Source: Chloroflexota bacterium (GTDB lineage Bacteria; Chloroflexota; UBA11872). From it: 64,000 nt of DNA. Both the position numbers and the translations under genes were made by a program. The stretch lies in the NCBI GenBank assembly GCA_026708035.1, contig JAPOVQ010000011.1, forward strand, positions 1 through 64,000. The letters are read 5' to 3'. Positions within the stretch are counted from its first letter, which is position 1. Each line of letters begins with the position of its first letter. The notes beneath the pieces are model-generated. The model saw only the letters and a program-made list of their open reading frames with translations, did no database searches and was not told the origin of the DNA. Shown piece by piece: positions 7,973-28,057 of the stretch.

Positions 7973-7999
7973 ACTATTGTGTCTGTAGTTCACAATAGT
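7973..7999. promoter_or_regulatory. Inverted-repeat operator O2
   Basis: Left arm ACTATTGTG and right arm CACAATAGT form a perfect 9-bp inverted repeat, again with a 9-bp spacer. It shares the half-site core ACTAT(T/G)(G/A)TG with O1, and the two centres are 50 bp apart. It lies just before the XRE gene. A potential upstream GTG start at 7979 falls inside it, which argues that the gene really starts at ATG 8027. This is the arrangement expected for autoregulation. Confidence 0.65.
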
Positions 8000-8026
8000 G
8001 AGTCACAGTCCGGGGACCTGGACGAC

Positions 8027-8389
8027 ATGTCCTTGCGCATGCGCTATCTGTTCGCCACTGTTCGCAAGTCCGATGACACCGCCTACACCGTCGATGAGGT
8101 CGCGCGCGGAACCGGCGTCTCCCTGACCTACCTCCGCAACATGCTGGCCGGACGCCAGGACAATCCCAGCCGCAAGGTCATCGCTGCAATTGCCCGGTTC
8201 TTTTGCGTCTCCCCCGCCTACTTCTTCGAATCGGATAGCGAGATCAACTCGGAGTCTGAGGCGCCAGCATCGGAGATCGAAGTCGCGCTTCGATCTGCCG
8301 ATCGTCTGGGGCCTGAAGGCCGGCAAATCTTGCTTGACATGATTCGACTCGCCCAACGGATTGTGGGGCAGCGCAGTCTGGACACGTGA
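8027..8389 (+). CDS. XRE-family repressor (ImmR-like)
   Basis: This is a 120-residue DNA-binding protein. An N-terminal helix-turn-helix (about residues 20-75) has a recognition region around GVSLTYLRNMLAGRQ and an AIARFFCVSPAYFF segment typical of Xre/CI-type regulators. A short acidic linker and C-terminal helix follow. The frame opens at GTG 7979, but that codon lies within operator O2. ATG 8027 with GGGGACCTGG upstream is preferred. It overlaps the ImmA-type gene by 4 bases (GTGA). By analogy with ImmR of ICEBs1 it would repress the divergent element genes. Confidence 0.8.
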   Translation: MSLRMRYLFATVRKSDDTAYTVDEVARGTGVSLTYLRNMLAGRQDNPSRKVIAAIARFFCVSPAYFFESDSEINSESEAPASEIEVALRSADRLGPEGRQILLDMIRLAQRIVGQRSLDT

Positions 8390-8880
8390 ACGCGCTGCTC
8401 GAGGCGCGGACGTTGCTTCGCGAGCTAGGCCTCAGCGGCCGCCGATTCGACCACGATCTACTCCTAGAGCGGCTTGAAGCGCGCCTTGGGCTCGTCATCG
8501 ACGCCGTCCCCGACACTCGGCTGCCCGCCGGCGGCATCTCCGGCGCCCGCATCACGATCGATGGATCCCACGTCGTGTTTTATCCAGCCCGTGACTCCCG
8601 GCATCAGCAGTTCGCCATCATCTGCCACGAGTGTGCCCATCTACTTCTGAAACATCGCAGTCGCTCCGTCGGCGAAATGTTCGCCGGAACCGATCCCCCG
8701 TCTCCCGATGACGAGTTGGCCGCCGAAGCGCTCGGGGCCGCCCTCACACACTTCGCCAATCAACCAGAGTGGCTGCGGTCACTCGTTCAAGGCTCGGCTT
8801 CGGCCGAGTCCCGTCGCCTGCCGATGCCAATCGGCACGTGGATTCGCAAATGCTTTCGGCCCCTTGGTCCCGCCCGGTAG
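8386..8880 (+). CDS. ImmA/IrrE-family metallo-endopeptidase
   Basis: This 164-residue protein carries the zinc-peptidase motif H81-E-C-A-H85 within IICHECAHLLL, and a downstream Glu-rich helix (DDELAAEALGAALT) that could give the third ligand. ImmA/IrrE proteases cleave their partner XRE repressor after a signal such as DNA damage. The GTG start overlaps the repressor stop codon, so the two are made together. With the operators upstream, this is a self-contained induction switch. The third ligand and substrate are inferred. Confidence 0.8.
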   Translation: MNALLEARTLLRELGLSGRRFDHDLLLERLEARLGLVIDAVPDTRLPAGGISGARITIDGSHVVFYPARDSRHQQFAIICHECAHLLLKHRSRSVGEMFAGTDPPSPDDELAAEALGAALTHFANQPEWLRSLVQGSASAESRRLPMPIGTWIRKCFRPLGPAR

Positions 8881-14356: not shown

Positions 14357-14668
14357 TCTTGGACAGCGACATCATTGTGTAGAAGGTGCGTCACGCGTCG
14401 AGCAGTCGTCGTATTTCTGCTGCCGTGCCACCGACCGGGCAGCGTCTCCAGCCCGTGTCCTCCATCGACCCACCAGGCTAGAGGAAATTGAGGGCTTTCG
14501 CCCTGCGATTCTGCGTGGCGCTGCAACCCCGGACATCCATTGCGCGTTGTCGACACCGTAGGCCGATGTCCGAACGGCCGCCAAAAAGGCACAATTGGCG
14601 CACCCAGAAGCGCGAGCTACGGTGCCGTTGGGTGGCCAATGACGACCACCTAGAGGAAGGAGGCTCCC
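14357..14668. other. Intergenic, promoter side of the 14.67 kb cluster
   Basis: This stretch lies between the broken toxin gene and the first intact ORF of the plus-strand cluster. Open frames are overlapping and arginine-rich. Only the ribosome site at its right edge (AAGGAGG, 14657-14663) is convincing. A promoter is expected here but I cannot identify one. Confidence 0.35.
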
Positions 14669-14803
14669 ATGCCTCACGTACTCACCCGCACACGGGCCGT
14701 GGTCGGCGGCGGAATTATGGCGGTGCTCCTCTTGGCCTGTTTCGGCGCGCAGTTCGCGCGCAAGCGGCATACCTCGCTCCGGCACACCCCGGAGGATCGA
14801 TAG
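14669..14803 (+). CDS. 44-residue single-helix membrane protein
   Basis: ATG at 14669 has a strong ribosome site (AAGGAGG, 5 bases upstream). The product has a basic N-terminus, one hydrophobic helix (VVGGGIMAVLLLACFGAQF) and a basic tail. The Cys in the helix could belong to a lipobox-like site, but the context is weak. The TAG stop is in frame with the next gene, whose frame is open from that stop onward. The two could once have been one gene, or could be joined by readthrough. No family is recognised. Confidence 0.55.
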   Translation: MPHVLTRTRAVVGGGIMAVLLLACFGAQFARKRHTSLRHTPEDR

Positions 14804-14848
14804 CGGGTCGCCAAGACATCCCTCACGGGCGCCGGACACCTAGTCGTC

Positions 14849-15439
14849 GTGCTGGCGCTCGCGGTGACTGCCGCGGCACTCTCCGTCAACGCGGCAATGG
14901 CGGTGCTCCAACATCGCCAGACCGCCGAGGTGACGGAGCTACCCGCCGGCGGACCCATCGAGGAGCCGGCAGTGGGCGCGTTCCAGGTCACGAGTGAGAT
15001 CACCGAGATCTCGGTCGAACGAGCCATGGAAGCCGGCGACGAGTCCGGCCCTCCCATCGAAGGATTCGAGACACCCGTTGTAATTGAAGGCCAAGGCACG
15101 ACGCCTATGGCCGCCACTCTCGATCCTGGTCTATGGATCGCGGAAGTCAGATTCTTCGACTACACCTCACCAACGCTGGGCACGATCCCGGGCGTGAACA
15201 TCAGGTCCCGGGAGGGGATGGGTGGCATGCGCTGGAGCTCGAGCGGAAGCGCAACGTCCTGGGCCGCGCTCCACGTTGGCGGCTGGATCCCCACGCAGAT
15301 CCCCGGCTTTACGCCAGGCGCGGTGATCGTGAACGTCGACGCCATCCCCGAGGACGTGCAGTGGCTCGTGCGCTTCAGGCGTCTTGGCGAACTCGAGAGG
15401 CCCGACGGCGCCCTCAATTGGAGTGATGTGAGGCGCTGA
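14849..15439 (+). CDS. Membrane-anchored beta-rich protein, type 1 copy A
   Basis: The product is 196 residues from GTG 14849. It has an N-terminal membrane helix (ALAVTAAALSVNAAMAVLQ), an acidic linker, and a beta-rich domain containing LDPGLWIAEVRFFDY, PGAVIVNVDAIPEDVQWLV and RRLGELE. It is a clear paralogue of the gene at 16851-17405, sharing ALSVNAA..VLQ, GLWI..VRF.DY, a G.IP..N segment and W..F.R.GEL. The true start is uncertain: upstream codons resemble the paralogue's N-terminus back to a TAG at 14801, with no start codon among them. The helix suggests a membrane protein with an outside domain. Function unknown. Confidence 0.6.
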   Translation: MLALAVTAAALSVNAAMAVLQHRQTAEVTELPAGGPIEEPAVGAFQVTSEITEISVERAMEAGDESGPPIEGFETPVVIEGQGTTPMAATLDPGLWIAEVRFFDYTSPTLGTIPGVNIRSREGMGGMRWSSSGSATSWAALHVGGWIPTQIPGFTPGAVIVNVDAIPEDVQWLVRFRRLGELERPDGALNWSDVRR

Positions 15440-15596
15440 TGTCGGCTGAGTCATCCGCACCGCCTGGCGTCGTCAATCGGAGTGGGATGACGAGCCGTGG
15501 CGGCAGCCTTGGCGGTGCCGACCGGCAACCGAGGCGCCGGGCCGGTGGGATGGCCACCCGCCGGCCCGGGCGCGACGAACGACAAGGAGATTCACC

Positions 15597-15689
15597 ATGA
15601 AGCGACGATTTCTCACAGCGACGGTCCTGATGGTCGTCGGGATCTGGCTGGCGGCGACGGCCGTGGCCAGCGCGGGAATCGCTGGGTAG
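15597..15689 (+). CDS. 30-residue signal-peptide-like microprotein
   Basis: ATG at 15597 follows AAGGAGA with a 6-base gap, a good ribosome site. The peptide is MKRRF, a hydrophobic core, then ATAVASA-GIAG. That is a complete signal peptide with a plausible cleavage site and only four residues after it. It could be a real microprotein, a leader, or the remains of a shortened secreted protein. The next small gene starts two bases after its stop. Confidence 0.45.
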   Translation: MKRRFLTATVLMVVGIWLAATAVASAGIAG

Positions 15690-15691
15690 CC

Positions 15692-15823
15692 ATGGTCAGC
15701 CTGGGACCCCTCGAAGTACTGATCATCATCTTGCTCGCCCTGCCGATCGTGGCCCTGGTGGTAGGCACCGCAGCTGCGGCACGGTACCTCTACCTCAGTT
15801 GGCGCAGGCCCGACCGAAAGTGA
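15692..15823 (+). CDS. 43-residue single-helix membrane protein
   Basis: ATG at 15692 begins a short protein: seven polar-to-neutral residues (MVSLGPL), a long hydrophobic helix (EVLIIILLALPIVALVVGTA) and a basic C-terminus (WRRPDRK). The first residues faintly resemble TatA starts, but the amphipathic helix of TatA is missing. It starts 2 bases after the preceding microprotein and ends 7 bases before the next gene, so all are probably in one transcript. Function unknown. Confidence 0.5.
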   Translation: MVSLGPLEVLIIILLALPIVALVVGTAAAARYLYLSWRRPDRK

Positions 15824-15830
15824 GCGACCG

Positions 15831-16784
15831 ATGAGTCAGCTTGGCCGGCTTGAACGGCTCGCTTGGCTGACCATCGGGTTCGTGATCGCCGGGTGCCTCG
15901 TGTGGCAGACCGTCAGCGGTGAGCTATCTCGCCGTCAGACGCGCGAATTCATGGAGATGTCCCTGCACGCCAGCATGGGCGACGAGATTGTCGTTTCCGA
16001 GGTCGTTCGTGAAGTCCCGGTCGAGGTGCTTCGCGAAGTCCCCGTCGAGCGGGTTCCGGTTCGGGCGATCCCGGGCAGCGACGAGATCGTCACCAGCAAG
16101 GTCACGAACATTGTGCCTCCAGACGTGACGGACCCGACGCCGCCAGACCTCTGCGAATCCGTCGACCTGACGGGCGTCGGTTTTGGCAATGAGGTCCGCG
16201 ACCTTGCGCCCGGCGTCTACACCGCCACGATCCACGGCGACACTTTTGCCCTCGACGTCACCATGGAGTCCGTCGACGGGCGTAGCCGGTTCAACTGGGG
16301 ACGTACGGCGTCGGTGTCGTCAGCGGTGGGCGATCACGCCGATGCAGCGCTATTCGTGGGCCCCACGCGCATCACCGTGAGTCCGCCCGGTCCCGATGTG
16401 CGCTGGGGAATCGTGATCGAGCGCCTCGATTCCGAGAGCGACGCGACGCCGATCAGGGTCGAGGTCGTCGGCGACGAGGCGGCGATCGCGGACCTGTCGC
16501 CGGGCCTCTGGCGGGTGGACCTGGTGTGGACATCCGGGGACCGGCCAGCCAACTGGGTGTGGGACGCCAGCATCGAGTCGGTGGCGGGATTCGGCGGCGG
16601 GCCATGGGGTGGCGGGTGCACCGTGATTCACGTGGGGCCCAGTGCCAATCAGCCCTTTTCCGGAATTCGCCTGGATCCCGGCGAGGTGGCGGTCACCGCC
16701 AACGTGCCGCCGGACTTCACCTGGGCGGTGGCGTTCACGCCGTTTCCCACCGGCGCCGATGATGACGGCGAGTGTCTCTGGTGA
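15831..16784 (+). CDS. Membrane-anchored beta-rich protein, type 2 copy A (two domains)
   Basis: The product is 317 residues. An N-terminal membrane helix containing CLVWQTV is followed by a stalk with repeated REVPVE units (about residues 60-80), then two related beta-rich domains. The first has LAPGVYTATI and later VRWGIVIERL. The second has LSPGLWRVDLVW, LDPGEVAVTANV and FTWAVAFTPF. The VWQTV helix and the domain pattern link it to the gene at 17509-18003. REVPVE-like stalks are seen in several bacterial surface proteins. This suggests a protein projecting from the membrane, but no function is known to me. Confidence 0.6.
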   Translation: MSQLGRLERLAWLTIGFVIAGCLVWQTVSGELSRRQTREFMEMSLHASMGDEIVVSEVVREVPVEVLREVPVERVPVRAIPGSDEIVTSKVTNIVPPDVTDPTPPDLCESVDLTGVGFGNEVRDLAPGVYTATIHGDTFALDVTMESVDGRSRFNWGRTASVSSAVGDHADAALFVGPTRITVSPPGPDVRWGIVIERLDSESDATPIRVEVVGDEAAIADLSPGLWRVDLVWTSGDRPANWVWDASIESVAGFGGGPWGGGCTVIHVGPSANQPFSGIRLDPGEVAVTANVPPDFTWAVAFTPFPTGADDDGECLW

Positions 16785-16850
16785 CTCCAGCCGCCCGGTG
16801 CTGGCGGCAACTGCGCCAAGCCCTGAGACCCAACCAAAGGAGCTGACGAC

Positions 16851-17405
16851 ATGACAATCCTCAACCGCGTCGGGCGAGTCCTGGTCGTGTTTTCCCTCGT
16901 GGTCATCGCCATCGCGCTGTCCGTGAATGCGGCGTTCTTGGTGCTCCAGTACCAACAGTCGGAGGCGTTCTTCGGGAGCGCCTCGGACAGGGCGGTGTAC
17001 ACCTCGGATGGCGGAATACGAACGGAGTCGACCACGACCATCACGCAGACGTCCATCCATATCAGCGGGCATGGCTCCGAGCCGTCGGAGCCGGTCGAGC
17101 TGCTATCGGAGGGCCTGTGGATCGTGAGCGTTCGCTTCGCCGACTATGAGCCGCCCGAGGTCGGGAACATCCCCACCGTCAATCTCAACAGCGTCAGCAG
17201 CACGGGCGGCGCGGGATGGTCGGGAGATTGGTGGAATCACATTTACGTCTCCGCTGACAAGGATTGGGGGGAAGAGCGGGCGCCGATTCAGTGGATTGCC
17301 ACCTTCACGCCCGGTGAAGTCGTGTTACATATTTCCGACCTGCCGGACGACGTCGGGTGGTATGCAGATTTCGAGCGGATCGGTGAGCTTCAGCCGGAGG
17401 AGTGA
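16851..17405 (+). CDS. Membrane-anchored beta-rich protein, type 1 copy B
   Basis: The product is 184 residues from ATG 16851, with a ribosome site (AAAGGAG) upstream. An N-terminal helix (VLVVFSLVVIAIALSVNAAFLVLQ) is followed by a Ser/Thr-rich linker, then the same beta-rich domain as 14849-15439: EGLWIVSVRFADYEPPEVGNIP, FTPGEVVLHISDLPDDVGW and ERIGEL. It has a complete start, so it is the better guide to the N-terminus of this type. It sits between two type 2 genes. Confidence 0.6.
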   Translation: MTILNRVGRVLVVFSLVVIAIALSVNAAFLVLQYQQSEAFFGSASDRAVYTSDGGIRTESTTTITQTSIHISGHGSEPSEPVELLSEGLWIVSVRFADYEPPEVGNIPTVNLNSVSSTGGAGWSGDWWNHIYVSADKDWGEERAPIQWIATFTPGEVVLHISDLPDDVGWYADFERIGELQPEE

Positions 17406-17508
17406 ATCGCCAGCCATGGGGCGGTCGGCGGTCGTCAGCCTCCTTCGCAGGGGGCAGTCCGCAGCTCAGCCGTCGGCTGCTCCGCCATTGAGGGACTGAG
17501 AGAGTGAC

Positions 17509-18003
17509 ATGAGCGATCGGTGGGCGCGGATCGTGGTGCTGTTGATGTTTCTCATCGCCCTGGCCCTGGTCTGGCAGACCGTGCGGAGGGAGATGCTGTA
17601 TTGGGGCGTACAAGTCTCGAGTGGGAGCAGCCCGCCGGTCGACTTGTCGGCGATGTTTTCGGAAGTTACGGTGTCCGATCTCGAAGACCTGGTCGTGATC
17701 GAGGTCATACTGGTCGACGGCCTCGGACGCGAGGAGCGGCCCGTGACCTTGGCGGCCGGTATCTGGCGGGCGACCACGGAGACCTTCGGCACCACCATCA
17801 ATGAGACGCAGATAATCGGCACCGGTGAGAAGGACAGCAGGCTCGGGTGGCCGAGTGACGCGTCGCGTCCGGCGTATTTCGAGGTCGGCAACTACCCCGA
17901 TCCCGGTTCCACGCTCTACGGCCGTGAGTTCATCATTCGAACCAACGCGCTTTCGGACGACCATCCGTGGTCGGTGACGTTGGAGCGGTTTGGGTGGCGC
18001 TAG
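17509..18003 (+). CDS. Membrane-anchored beta-rich protein, type 2 copy B
   Basis: The product is 164 residues from ATG 17509. The N-terminal helix contains ALVWQTVRRE, matching CLVWQTVSGE of the gene at 15831. A single domain follows, with LAAGIWRATTETFG and HPWSVTLERFGWR, matching the PGlW and W-x-V-x-FER signatures of the other three genes. It ends the cluster. The order type 1, type 2, type 1, type 2 indicates duplication of a two-gene unit, so the two types may act together. Confidence 0.6.
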   Translation: MSDRWARIVVLLMFLIALALVWQTVRREMLYWGVQVSSGSSPPVDLSAMFSEVTVSDLEDLVVIEVILVDGLGREERPVTLAAGIWRATTETFGTTINETQIIGTGEKDSRLGWPSDASRPAYFEVGNYPDPGSTLYGREFIIRTNALSDDHPWSVTLERFGWR

Positions 18004-18166
18004 CGGTGCTGGGCCCATAGCCGTTTCGGTTGCAGTTGCTCTCGTTGGCCGAGTGGCTGCTCAGCGTGCTAACCCTGCTCGGACCCTTAGTCCAACGGCA
18101 CCTGCCGCCGCCGAATTGCACGGAGACTAAACAGCAGCGGTAGCCGCGTATGCGCCTGCGCTTCGA

Positions 18167-19656: not shown

Positions 19657-20667
19657 CTAGAGCCGGTCGCCGGGCGACAGGCGCCGGTGAGCCTCACGGG
19701 CGCGTGTCGACGCGGCGCTGGCCGCATAGCGGCCCACCATCGCGCGACTACGCCAGCCGGCCACTCGCATGAGGTCCGTCTCCTGCCCGCCGGCCACCAG
19801 CCAGGCATGAGCAAAGGAGTGGCGCAGTTGGTGGGGATGCACCTTCGGGATGCCGGCCTCGCGCGCCCGGTTCCGGACGATCTGATAGACGCCGCTCGGC
19901 GTGATCGGCCCACCTCTCCCCAAAAACAGCGCCGCCGCCTCGGCGTGCAGGTGCGTCACCCGCGCCCGCAGATAGCGATCCAGCGCCTGCACCAGCTTCC
20001 GACCCAATGGCACTAGACGCTCGCGGCCGCCCTTGCCGAGCACGCGCAGCAGGCTCTGGTCGAGGTCCAGGTCGTCGCAGCGCACCGAGGCCACCTCGCC
20101 CCGACGCATGCCCGTATCGATTAGCAGCAGCAGGATCGCCAGGTCGCGCCGCGCCTCGAACGAGCGACCGCGGCAGGCCTCCAGCAGGCGCCGCAGGTCG
20201 TCGATCTCCAGGACGTCGGGTACGCGCTCCTCGAACTTCGGCGGGCGCATCCGATGCATCGGTGAAATGTTCACCTCGCCCTCGTCCTCGGCCCAGCCGA
20301 AGAAGCGCTGCAGGCTGCGGTAGCGCGTGTTGGCCGTTGAGGCCGAGTGGCGATCGAGCTGGTCCTGCACGAAGGCCTCGCAGTGCTCGCGCCGGATCGC
20401 CTCGATGTCGCGCGGCATGCCCTGCGCCGCGAGGAACTGCACGAACAGGCGCACGGTCCGCAGGTAGGTGTCGAGCGTGGCCGGCGACTTGTTCTCGGCC
20501 GCCAGCGTCCGCCGCCACGACAGGGCCAGGGTCGCCACGTCGCCGTAGCCACCTGCTGGGCGGCGGGCCGGAGCGCGGCGCGCGGGGCGCGGATTGGTTC
20601 GGACTTGGGGGCGAGTGGGGCGCTTGCGAGGCATGTGTCGGGCGATTCGGGGGCGTGCTGAAGACAC
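19657..20667 (-). CDS. XerC/D-type tyrosine recombinase (integrase)
   Basis: The product is 336 residues. A basic N-terminus is followed by a SAM-like core-binding domain (about residues 45-140) and a catalytic domain with Arg in DTGMRRGE, Lys in LGKGGRER, the HQLRHSF box, Trp in place of the second His ([10 protein letters not shown]), and the nucleophile Tyr in VGRYAAS. Trp at that position is tolerated in this superfamily. It starts 100 bases downstream of the 3' end of tRNA-Thr, the usual place for the integrase of a tRNA-targeting element extending to lower coordinates. The start may instead be ATG 20634. It appears intact. Confidence 0.85.
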
Positions 20668-20766: not shown

Positions 20767-20842
20767 TGGAGCCCACACCCGGAATTGAACCGGGGACCTC
20801 GTCCTTACCAAGAACGCGCTCTTCCAACTGAGCTATGTGGGC
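20767..20842 (-). tRNA. tRNA-Thr (GGU), CCA encoded
   Basis: The minus strand gives a full cloverleaf: acceptor GCCCACA pairing with TGTGGGC, D-arm GCTC...GAGC, anticodon arm CGTTC-TTGGTAA-GGACG (anticodon GGT) with one non-canonical pair, T-arm CCGGG-TTCAATT-CCGGG, discriminator T and encoded CCA (20769-20767). A tyrosine recombinase gene follows its 3' end, making it a plausible integration target. Confidence 0.95.
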
Positions 20843-25763: not shown

Positions 25764-26332
25764 CCTCCGAGGAGTGGCCGCCGCTGCCGGAGTCCATCCA
25801 AACGCCGCGGCTGCTCCTGCGGCGGTACAGACTCAGCGACGCGGAGGATTCCTATGCCTATGCGCGCGACCCGGAGTGGGGACGCTTCCTGCCCCCGGTT
25901 CCGCGGCCCTACGAGCGGCGGCATGCCGATGAGTTTGTGGCCGGGCAGGTGTTGGCAAAGTGGGACCAGGAGCCCGCCTGGGCGATCGAGCACGAGGGCC
26001 GGTTGGTCGGAGGGGTAAGCCTGCGGCTGGCTCCCCGGAATGAGCGAGCTGAACTCGGCTATTCGATCGCTCGGTGGTTGTGGGGTCGAGGTTTAGCAAC
26101 CGAAGCCGTGTCGGCGGTCATCGACGCGGCGTTCCGATGCCTGCCGCTTCGCAAGATCGCCGCCCGCGCGGTCGCCGCGAATCTCGGTTCGATTCGTGTC
26201 ATGGAGAAGGTCGGGATGCGGCACGAAGGGGTGCTGCGCCAGCACTGGGTTGTCCACGGCCAAACGTGCGATTCCGTGCACTACGGCCTGCTGCGCAAAG
26301 AGTGGGAGCGGCAGGCGGACGCTAGGAGATGA
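25760..26332 (+). CDS. GNAT acetyltransferase, RimJ/RimL type, copy 1 of 5
   Basis: The product is 190 residues. The RimJ/RimL N-acetyltransferase pattern is visible: TPRLLLRRYRLSDAED at the start, ELGYSIARWLWGRGLATEA (acetyl-CoA loop) and N-x-G-S-I-R-V-M-E-K-V-G-M near residue 150. It starts within the stop of the aminotransferase gene, and its stop overlaps copy 2. The target (protein N-terminus, antibiotic or small amine) is unknown. Confidence 0.85.
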   Translation: MTSEEWPPLPESIQTPRLLLRRYRLSDAEDSYAYARDPEWGRFLPPVPRPYERRHADEFVAGQVLAKWDQEPAWAIEHEGRLVGGVSLRLAPRNERAELGYSIARWLWGRGLATEAVSAVIDAAFRCLPLRKIAARAVAANLGSIRVMEKVGMRHEGVLRQHWVVHGQTCDSVHYGLLRKEWERQADARR

Positions 26333-26919
26333 CCGCCAACGACTGGCCGCCGCTGTCGGAGTCCATCCAAACGCCGCGGCTGCTCTTGCGACCGTTCAGA
26401 TTCGACGACGCGGAAGACATATACGCCTATGCGAGCGACCCGGAATGGGGACGCTTTCTTGCTCACGAGCAGCCTTACGAACGCCGTCATGCGGAGGTCT
26501 TCTTGGCCGAGCGCGTATTGGCGAAATGGCGCAAGAATCCTGCCTGGGCGTTTGAGCAGGACGGTCGAGTGGTCGGAGGTTTGGGCTTGTGGCTGGCTCG
26601 CCGGAATCGGCGGGCGGAGATTGGCTACGAGTTGGCCCGGCGGCTGTGGGGCCGCGGTCTCGCGACCGAGGCTGCAGCGGCAGTCATTGGCGAGGCATTT
26701 CGCCTGCTTCCGATCCGCAAGGTCACCGCAACCGCGAGCGCAGCCAACGTCCGATCAACTCGGTTGCTCGAACGACTCGGCATGCAGCGCGAAGCCCTGC
26801 TTCGACAGCACTGGGTGCATCGCGGCGAATCCCTGGATGAGGTTCGCTACGGGCTACTCCGTGAAGAGTGGCAGCCGCAAGCCGGCCTCGCTTCCAGCGA
26901 GCCACGCGCTTCACGATGA
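26329..26919 (+). CDS. GNAT acetyltransferase, copy 2 of 5
   Basis: The product is 196 residues and the most divergent member. It shares the opening WPPLSESIQTPRLLLRPFR, the acetyl-CoA loop EIGYELARRLWGRGLATEA and the RLLERLGM segment, but lacks the PxVP before PYERRHA that the others carry. It overlaps both neighbours by 4 bases. Confidence 0.83.
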   Translation: MTANDWPPLSESIQTPRLLLRPFRFDDAEDIYAYASDPEWGRFLAHEQPYERRHAEVFLAERVLAKWRKNPAWAFEQDGRVVGGLGLWLARRNRRAEIGYELARRLWGRGLATEAAAAVIGEAFRLLPIRKVTATASAANVRSTRLLERLGMQREALLRQHWVHRGESLDEVRYGLLREEWQPQAGLASSEPRASR

Positions 26920-27488
26920 CCACCGGCGACTGGCCGCTGCTGCCGGAGTCCATCCAGACGCCGCGGCTGCTCGTGCGGCGATTCAGGCTCACCGACGCCG
27001 AAGACGTGTATGCCTATGCGCGGGACTCGGAATGGCGGCGTTTTCTCTTCACGGTTCCGCAGCCCTACGAGCGGCGGCACGCGGACGAATTTGTGGCGGC
27101 GAATGTACTCACCGACTGGCGCGCCAAGCCGCAGTGGGCGATTGAGTGCGAGGGCCGGGTCGTCGGAACGGTCGCGCTATGGATCGATCTCGGGCATGGG
27201 CGGGCGGAATTCGGCTACACCCTGGCGCGTTGGCTGTGGGGTCGTGGCCTGATGACCGAAGTCGTGTCGGCGCTAATCGACGAGGCGTTCGCCACGCTCC
27301 CGCTGCGCAAGATCACCGCCCGTGCGCTTGCCCCCAACATCGGATCGATTCGAGTGATGGAGAAGGCCGGTATGCAATTCGAGGCGGTGCTTCGCCAGCA
27401 TTTCTCGCACCGCGGCGAGGTGTTTGACCTGGTGCACTATGGGCTCTTGCGCGAAGAGTGGGAACGGCAGGCCGACGCTAGGAGATGA
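26916..27488 (+). CDS. GNAT acetyltransferase, copy 3 of 5
   Basis: The product is 190 residues from ATG 26916. The motifs match copy 1 (PESIQTPRLLVRRFRLTDAED, EFGYTLARWLWGRGLMTEV, IRVMEKAGM). Its last eleven codons (EWERQADARR plus stop) match the end of copy 1 at protein level, and the DNA around both junctions is nearly identical, as expected from recent duplication or conversion. Confidence 0.83.
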   Translation: MTTGDWPLLPESIQTPRLLVRRFRLTDAEDVYAYARDSEWRRFLFTVPQPYERRHADEFVAANVLTDWRAKPQWAIECEGRVVGTVALWIDLGHGRAEFGYTLARWLWGRGLMTEVVSALIDEAFATLPLRKITARALAPNIGSIRVMEKAGMQFEAVLRQHFSHRGEVFDLVHYGLLREEWERQADARR

Positions 27489-28057
27489 CCGCCAACGACT
27501 GGCCACCGCTGTCGGAGTCCATCCAAACGCCGCGGCTACACCTGCGGCGATATCGGCTCACCGACGCGGCCGATGTCTTCGCCTACGCGCGCGACCCGGT
27601 GTGGGGGCGCTTCATGCCCCCTGTCCCGCGGCCCTACGAGCGGCACCATGCGGACGCCTTTGTGGCCGGCCAGGTGTCGGCGAATTGGCGGCAAGAGTCT
27701 GCCTGGGCGATTGAGCGCCAAGGTCGGGTGGTCGGCAGGGTGAGGCTGCGTCTGGCGCCGCCGCATGGGCGGGCGGATCTCGGCTATTCAATCGCTCGGT
27801 GGCTCTGGGGACGCGGCCTCACCACCGAAGCCGTATCGGCAGTCATCGACGAGGCGTTCCGATGCCTGCCGTTGCGCAAGATCGCCGCGGGCGCAATCGC
27901 CGAAAACGTCGGGTCGATTCGAGTCATGCAGAAGGTCGACATGCAGCGCGAAGGAGTGATGCGTCAGCACTGGGTGTGCCACGGCCAGACTTGCGACTCG
28001 GTGCACTACGGCATCCTGCGCGAAGAGTGGGAGCAGCGAGCGGGCGCCGTCGAATGA
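27485..28057 (+). CDS. GNAT acetyltransferase, copy 4 of 5
   Basis: The product is 190 residues. It opens with the same ATGACCGCCAACGACTGGCC as copy 2 and then follows copy 1 closely (DLGYSIARWLWGRGLTTEA, HWVCHGQTCDSVHYG). The mixed similarity suggests exchange between copies. Both ends overlap neighbours by 4 bases. Confidence 0.83.
   Translation: MTANDWPPLSESIQTPRLHLRRYRLTDAADVFAYARDPVWGRFMPPVPRPYERHHADAFVAGQVSANWRQESAWAIERQGRVVGRVRLRLAPPHGRADLGYSIARWLWGRGLTTEAVSAVIDEAFRCLPLRKIAAGAIAENVGSIRVMQKVDMQREGVMRQHWVCHGQTCDSVHYGILREEWEQRAGAVE

Follow-up and report, generated by a model that had tools for sequence, protein, structure and literature searches.

The window analysed here, 64,000 nucleotides of a contig from a Chloroflexota bacterium (JAPOVQ010000011.1; genome G000), carries at 14612-18003, on the plus strand, a cluster of open reading frames (ORFs) in the order m44, T1a, m30, m43, D2, T1b and T2. 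The four larger proteins, T1a, D2, T1b and T2, belong to a previously unnamed, lineage-specific domain family. The cluster is best explained as part of a lineage-specific, diversifying set of membrane-anchored surface proteins with jelly-roll domains, which are recombined and mobile and which probably serve in recognition or protection. The anatomical and evolutionary part of this explanation, taken alone, is highly probable; the explanation as a whole, function included, is about evenly balanced between holding and failing.

An unnamed jelly-roll domain family

The homology among the four proteins is far above chance. With the T1b protein as sole query, a search of the genome recovered T1a at an E-value of 6e-17, and a profile of the family recovered D2 at 6e-30 and T2, itself a row of that profile, at 1e-49. 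Each protein starts with a hydrophobic N-terminal helix, of type 1 or type 2, and the domain that follows is marked by G.G...L..G.W close to its start and W.v.f.R close to its end. Among 33 aligned domains, the invariant columns are one glycine and two tryptophans. An initial annotation made from the sequence had described four proteins with an N-terminal helix and a beta-rich domain bearing these motifs, one type 2 protein having two domains and a REVPVE stalk. All four ORFs lie where it placed them and are homologous, and D2 carries both the second domain and the stalk.

Structural models were generated with AlphaFold2. The T1b model is a beta sandwich (predicted local distance difference test, pLDDT, 78.6), and that of the T2 domain is a confident eight-stranded jelly-roll (pLDDT 89.7, predicted TM-score, pTM, 0.83). 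Compared by strand order, not by superposition, the two models show an identical order of eight strands with similar spacing. The structure prediction that the annotation had suggested as a check therefore yielded like folds for T1b and T2 rather than unrelated ones.

The annotation also knew of no family with this plan, and profile searches bear this out: in Pfam, NCBIfam, PHROGs and PADLOC, no profile came near its cut-off for the domain of the four larger proteins, and PDB sequence profiles gave chance-level matches only. Similarly, a Foldseek search of the PDB returned no match at E<0.001 for either the T1b or the T2 model, the nearest matches being generic jelly rolls, cupins, viral capsids and a GOLD domain. 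Four weak matches passed 0.001 in a viral structure library, none of them from a named relevant family. GOLD and other jelly-roll domains share the eight-stranded topology (weak Foldseek match to the p24 GOLD domain 5gu5, E 0.03, target-based TM-score, TMt, 0.50), but no sequence or structure match to them is significant and Pfam gives no GOLD match. Cupins were likewise matched weakly, with a TMt of up to 0.58. Type IV pilins and pseudopilins also place a beta-rich domain after a hydrophobic N-terminal helix; a pilin-like identity was rejected, as the G/xxxxE prepilin motif (Glu at +5) is absent from the aligned N-termini, the models are jelly-rolls and not the pilin alpha-beta roll, and no pilin is found among the listed PDB matches.

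Across 400 genomes of the phylum, the domain profile matched every one of the six from the window's genus, which have many copies, and most of those from the sister genus, where copies number 0-5; these genera belong to one GTDB family. Weak matches occur in two members of the neighbouring GTDB family, and beyond these groups one marginal genome (E 9.6e-4) is all that was detected among the 400. Sister-genus genomes encode a single-copy type 2-like gene (loci L120-L124 and L128) whose LAWQTVRQEL motif resembles VWQTVRREM of T2, and three of them carry a tandem pair of divergent members (L074, L075 and L127). A single-protein scan of a genome collection found one relative, in the metagenome-assembled genome Chloroflexi bacterium CO36386bin_13. 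The domain of the most distant relative, used as query, gave one weak match in the phylum and one chance-level match in plasmids. No match to the family was obtained by tblastn against phages and plasmids or in two scans of viral contigs. So far, the family has been seen essentially in one Chloroflexota lineage.

Mosaic genes, hypervariable sites and mobile elements

The domain tree resolves at least five supported clades, with the deep branching between them not settled. T1a and T1b fall in one clade, T2 in a second, D2 domain 1 in a third and D2 domain 2 in a fourth; the fifth unites proteins of the type found at a site termed S2 with one member of a sister-genus pair. For the D2 and T2 domains, nearer relatives of each are found at other loci. 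From 14612 to approximately 16930, the window cluster is nearest to the cluster at S2 of genomes G001 and G002; it lies elsewhere in its own genome, where S2 comprises only 1.0 kb, containing a remnant of module A (see below) and the gene of another lipoprotein. T1b is a chimera, its helix being of S2 type and its domain of S1 type: it has 15-16 of the first 23 residues in common with the S2 proteins, and in mid-domain it shares 2-3 of 20 residues with them and 20 of 23 with a protein from site S1. A further protein (L037, 3656-4234) bears a type 1 domain although its helix and stalk are type 2-like. The two kinds of helix and of domain thus recombine. The initial annotation had seen a duplicated two-gene module, alternating 1-2-1-2. 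This does not hold, given that the D2 and T2 domains lie in different clades and T1b is chimeric; strict alternation is peculiar to the window locus, and because of the separate clades and the T1b mosaic, assembly from parts is a likelier origin of its order than duplication of a pair. Pairing of members may nonetheless occur, as two divergent genes stand in tandem repeatedly in sister-genus genomes.

In each of the six genomes of the genus, site S1 separates groEL from the gene of an Rrf2 regulator, and its flanks are 90-95% identical. Its content differs: 4.9, 3.2, 1.1, 3.3, 2.1 and 1.0 kb in G000, G001, G002, G003, G004 and G005, respectively. S1 is therefore a hypervariable locus, with conserved flanks around variable, recombined content in close relatives. 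A role as target of a diversity-generating retroelement was rejected: the PF00078 reverse transcriptase is absent from the whole genome and was detected in control genomes.

As the annotation had proposed, the family is carried by mobile elements, and copies adjoin recombinases. Site S4 is an integrative element encoding a serine recombinase, a TrwB-type coupling protein, a VirB4/TraG-type ATPase and a replication-relaxation protein; it is 96.8% identical over 16.5 kb between genera, and its family gene has no silent difference. With recombinase and conjugation genes together, and being absent from this site in sister species, it has the make-up of an integrative and conjugative element (ICE) with cargo. 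In the window, a tyrosine integrase follows the cluster beside a tRNA-Thr gene. An integrase occupies this site in two of six species (G000 and G004), and homology to G004 stops at 18081, 78 bp past T2. No attachment repeats for this element were found in the window, and no left site, the contig beginning at window base 1. On the other side of the cluster lie genes for a VirB4/TraG ATPase, ParA, LuxR, a helix-turn-helix (HTH) protein and an M78 protein. The HTH regulator gene followed by an M78 peptidase-like gene (slightly under cut-off) occupies 7979-8877; such an ImmR/ImmA-like arrangement is typical of integrative elements.

One alternative is that the proteins are ICE cargo for entry exclusion or mating-pair interaction, the resident's anchored proteins blocking or stabilising contact with a second donor. 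The nearly identical S4 copy amid its conjugation genes, and the ATPase, ParA, HTH-M78 pair and integrase of the window, speak for this alternative. At the commonest sites, however, namely S1 and that of the sister-genus single gene, the stretches read contain no conjugation genes, and to our knowledge the exclusion proteins TraS, TraT and Eex differ in architecture; the alternative is accordingly unlikely.

Shared modules, microproteins and selection

The cluster contains two short modules, A and B (Table 1), both genus-specific. Module A was matched 16 times across six genomes of the genus and not at all in five sister-genus genomes, and the inspected copies sit at loci of the domain family or of linked lipoproteins. 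The conserved block starts at the second half of a promoter-like site, and TTG is frequent in other copies at the position of TTGGCG; an automatic sigma-70 scan did not list this site. A structured RNA in module A is not supported against shuffles (z -0.67), and an Rfam scan of the window detected tRNAs only. Module B occurs as 11 copies in five genomes.

m44 is a predicted lipoprotein-type leader: its lipobox cysteine follows an n- and h-region, and 11 of 12 module A copies retain it. The leader is 94% conserved as DNA, with proportions of silent and replacing differences of 0.134 (pS) and 0.119 (pN); because silent and replacing sites are alike, conservation acts at the DNA level, by constraint or homogenisation. 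m30 is exactly 30 codons long in all 11 copies (pooled pS 0.39, pN 0.13, omega 0.26). A purine-rich, ribosome-site-like stretch precedes its copies, and within a few bases of the stop lies the start of m43 or of an apparent decayed relative. For m43, omega is 0.33-0.40 against two genomes. Three tiny ORFs with good ribosome sites had been noted in the initial annotation; all three recur in other genomes of the genus, but m43 lacks a ribosome site of its own.

Like other small bacterial lipoproteins, m44 and linked proteins at L108, L073 and L035 end the signal peptide in an LLAC or LAAC lipobox; unlike them, m44 has only 44 residues and a variable tail, and the longer linked proteins fall in no Pfam family. 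Pfam-less secreted or lipoprotein-type neighbours at the hotspots include those at L108 (8391-9248), L073 (6860-7723), L035 (8225-8794 and 10483-10989), L109 (5471-6649), L077 (7377-8498) and L009 (11621-12280), in part with a leader of the module A type. One group of such neighbours has a repeated GTTVRxGDVxxDxxI motif and another a TKxLWC / CYDG pattern.

Most genes of the family and the microproteins are under purifying selection, with omega between 0.15 and 0.53. Among the window's larger genes, D2 has an omega of 0.15-0.35 and T2 one of 0.42-0.52, and the T1b domain gives 0.27; in the sister genus omega is 0.17-0.25 for the tandem pairs and 0.22-0.35 for the single gene. T1a is probably decaying: its omega is approximately 1.4 over 69 codons, and the copies in G002 and G001 are truncated or have internal deletions. 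It lacks an ATG, starting at a GTG, and shows no ribosome site. This GTG shares the frame of m44, one TAG downstream (14801-14848), and the TAG is also found in G001; the arrangement reflects either reinitiation or a broken fusion.

Table 1. Features of the cluster and of the adjoining element end (window positions).
Feature	Position	Strand	Description
Promoter-like site	14595-14623	+	TTGGCG, 17 nt, TACGGT; second half (GCGAGCTACGGT) 98% conserved, 12 copies
Module A	14612-14750	+	-10 region, leader, AGGAAGGAGG ribosome site, predicted lipoprotein-type leader; left homology edge sharp
m44	14669-14803	+	44 aa; signal peptide, LLLAC lipobox, short Arg-rich tail
T1a	14849-15439	+	Type 1 helix and jelly-roll domain
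Module B	15585-15695	+	Ribosome site, m30, stop, then immediately m43 start
m30	15597-15689	+	30 aa, signal-peptide-like (AVASA/GIAG)
m43	15692-15823	+	43-aa single-helix protein, positive C-terminal tail; start 2 nt past m30 stop
D2	15831-16784	+	Type 2 helix, REVPVE stalk, two jelly-roll domains
T1b	16851-17405	+	Type 1 helix and jelly-roll domain
T2	17509-18003	+	Type 2 helix and jelly-roll domain
Tyrosine integrase	19657-20667	-	Abuts tRNA-Thr; right end of integrated element; PF00589 E 8e-32
tRNA-Thr(GGT)	20767-20842	-	Likely integration site; right flank conserved in 6 of 6 genomes

Elsewhere in the window, three adjacent similar ORFs at 26329-28057, each starting (T)xxDWPxLxESIQTPRLxLRRF, are apparently a tandem triplication of an acetyltransferase-like gene.

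Proposed role and competing explanations

In the proposed mechanism, the family members would be small bitopic proteins whose single N-terminal helix anchors them in the cytoplasmic membrane, with one or two jelly-roll domains facing outside, some on a stalk. They would be expressed from hotspots bearing the shared promoter and lipoprotein leader of module A and the m30-m43 micro-operon of module B. Homologous recombination between copies would duplicate, delete and fuse helix, stalk and domain parts, and integrative elements would move copies between genomes; each species would show a different set because copies recombine and are carried by such elements. The likely use would be surface recognition or protection, in which partners, host or neighbours are bound or phage receptors masked, and in which diversity is favoured.

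An outward domain is suggested by the helix, the charge bias and the partners of the family. Positive charge is higher before the helix than after it in most members, most clearly in the sister genus. At L035 (7004-7426), a type 2-like anchor helix is fused to a bacterial SH3 domain (SH3_3, E 2e-6) without a jelly roll, and at L125 a distant relative combines a signal peptide and the family domain with a lamin-tail match that falls below threshold. This SH3 fusion and lamin-tail match suggest an extracellular setting.

Hypervariable surface-protein loci with recombining cassettes are a known general kind. The hotspots resemble them in their fixed flanks, variable interior, duplicated or chimeric surface-type genes, shared 5' module and broken copies, and differ in that no invertase, slipped repeats or single expression site was identified here and that the family is unnamed. 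Each family locus seems to have its own promoter, unlike single-expression-site loci. A more specific scheme of cassette-based surface variation, in which modules A and B are fixed recombination anchors for parts (helix, stalk and jelly-roll) that shuffle among hotspots and mobile elements, and in which m30, a free-standing signal peptide, is a new kind of functional micropeptide, has only a small chance of being correct.

Several observations weigh against an anchored, diversifying surface set. For several members, T2 and D2 included, little or no positive-inside bias is seen. Many copies are broken, T1a and the m44 tail look neutral, and part of the cluster may be relics. There is no excess of amino-acid changes of the kind that strong diversifying selection might leave. 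Furthermore, three more family copies (L011, L040 and L076) lie beside type I restriction genes, neighbours that suit a defence island equally well.

Alternatively, type 1 and type 2 proteins could assemble through their jelly-rolls into an appendage or a small complex of the envelope, as its structural subunits and with m30 and m43 as membrane helpers. This would suit the divergent tandem pairs that recur in the sister genus and the short micro-operon with its closely spaced starts; proteins of the Bacillus endospore appendage and exosporium are also among the jelly-roll matches (E ~0.02 only). However, members stand alone at S4, L011, L076 and the sister-genus single-copy site, assembly machinery is not nearby, a pilin-type cleavage motif is lacking and the fold match is not significant, so that such a complex is improbable. 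Less probable still is a defence island, in which the proteins would be membrane-anchored anti-phage sensors or effectors linked to type I restriction: the neighbours at L011 are confirmed as HsdM, HsdS and HsdR, and those at L040 and L076 are assigned by similarity to L011, but the family has no PADLOC match and no effector domain, and S1 lacks restriction genes. Equally poor is the view that the loci are mostly degenerate gene debris with little present function, since the broken copies (L012, L035, L078 and T1a of G001 and G002) and a module A leader conserved as DNA, not protein, stand against an omega clearly below 1 for D2, T1b, T2, m30, m43 and the sister-genus genes, with frames intact across genera.

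The findings add an unnamed domain family with a confident fold. They also reveal a natural experiment, in which one site beside groEL holds six different family gene sets in six species. m30, whose 11 copies all have one length, resembles a signal peptide and may itself be the gene product. If the jelly-roll proteins do serve in surface recognition or masking, this lineage would have its own way to vary its envelope.

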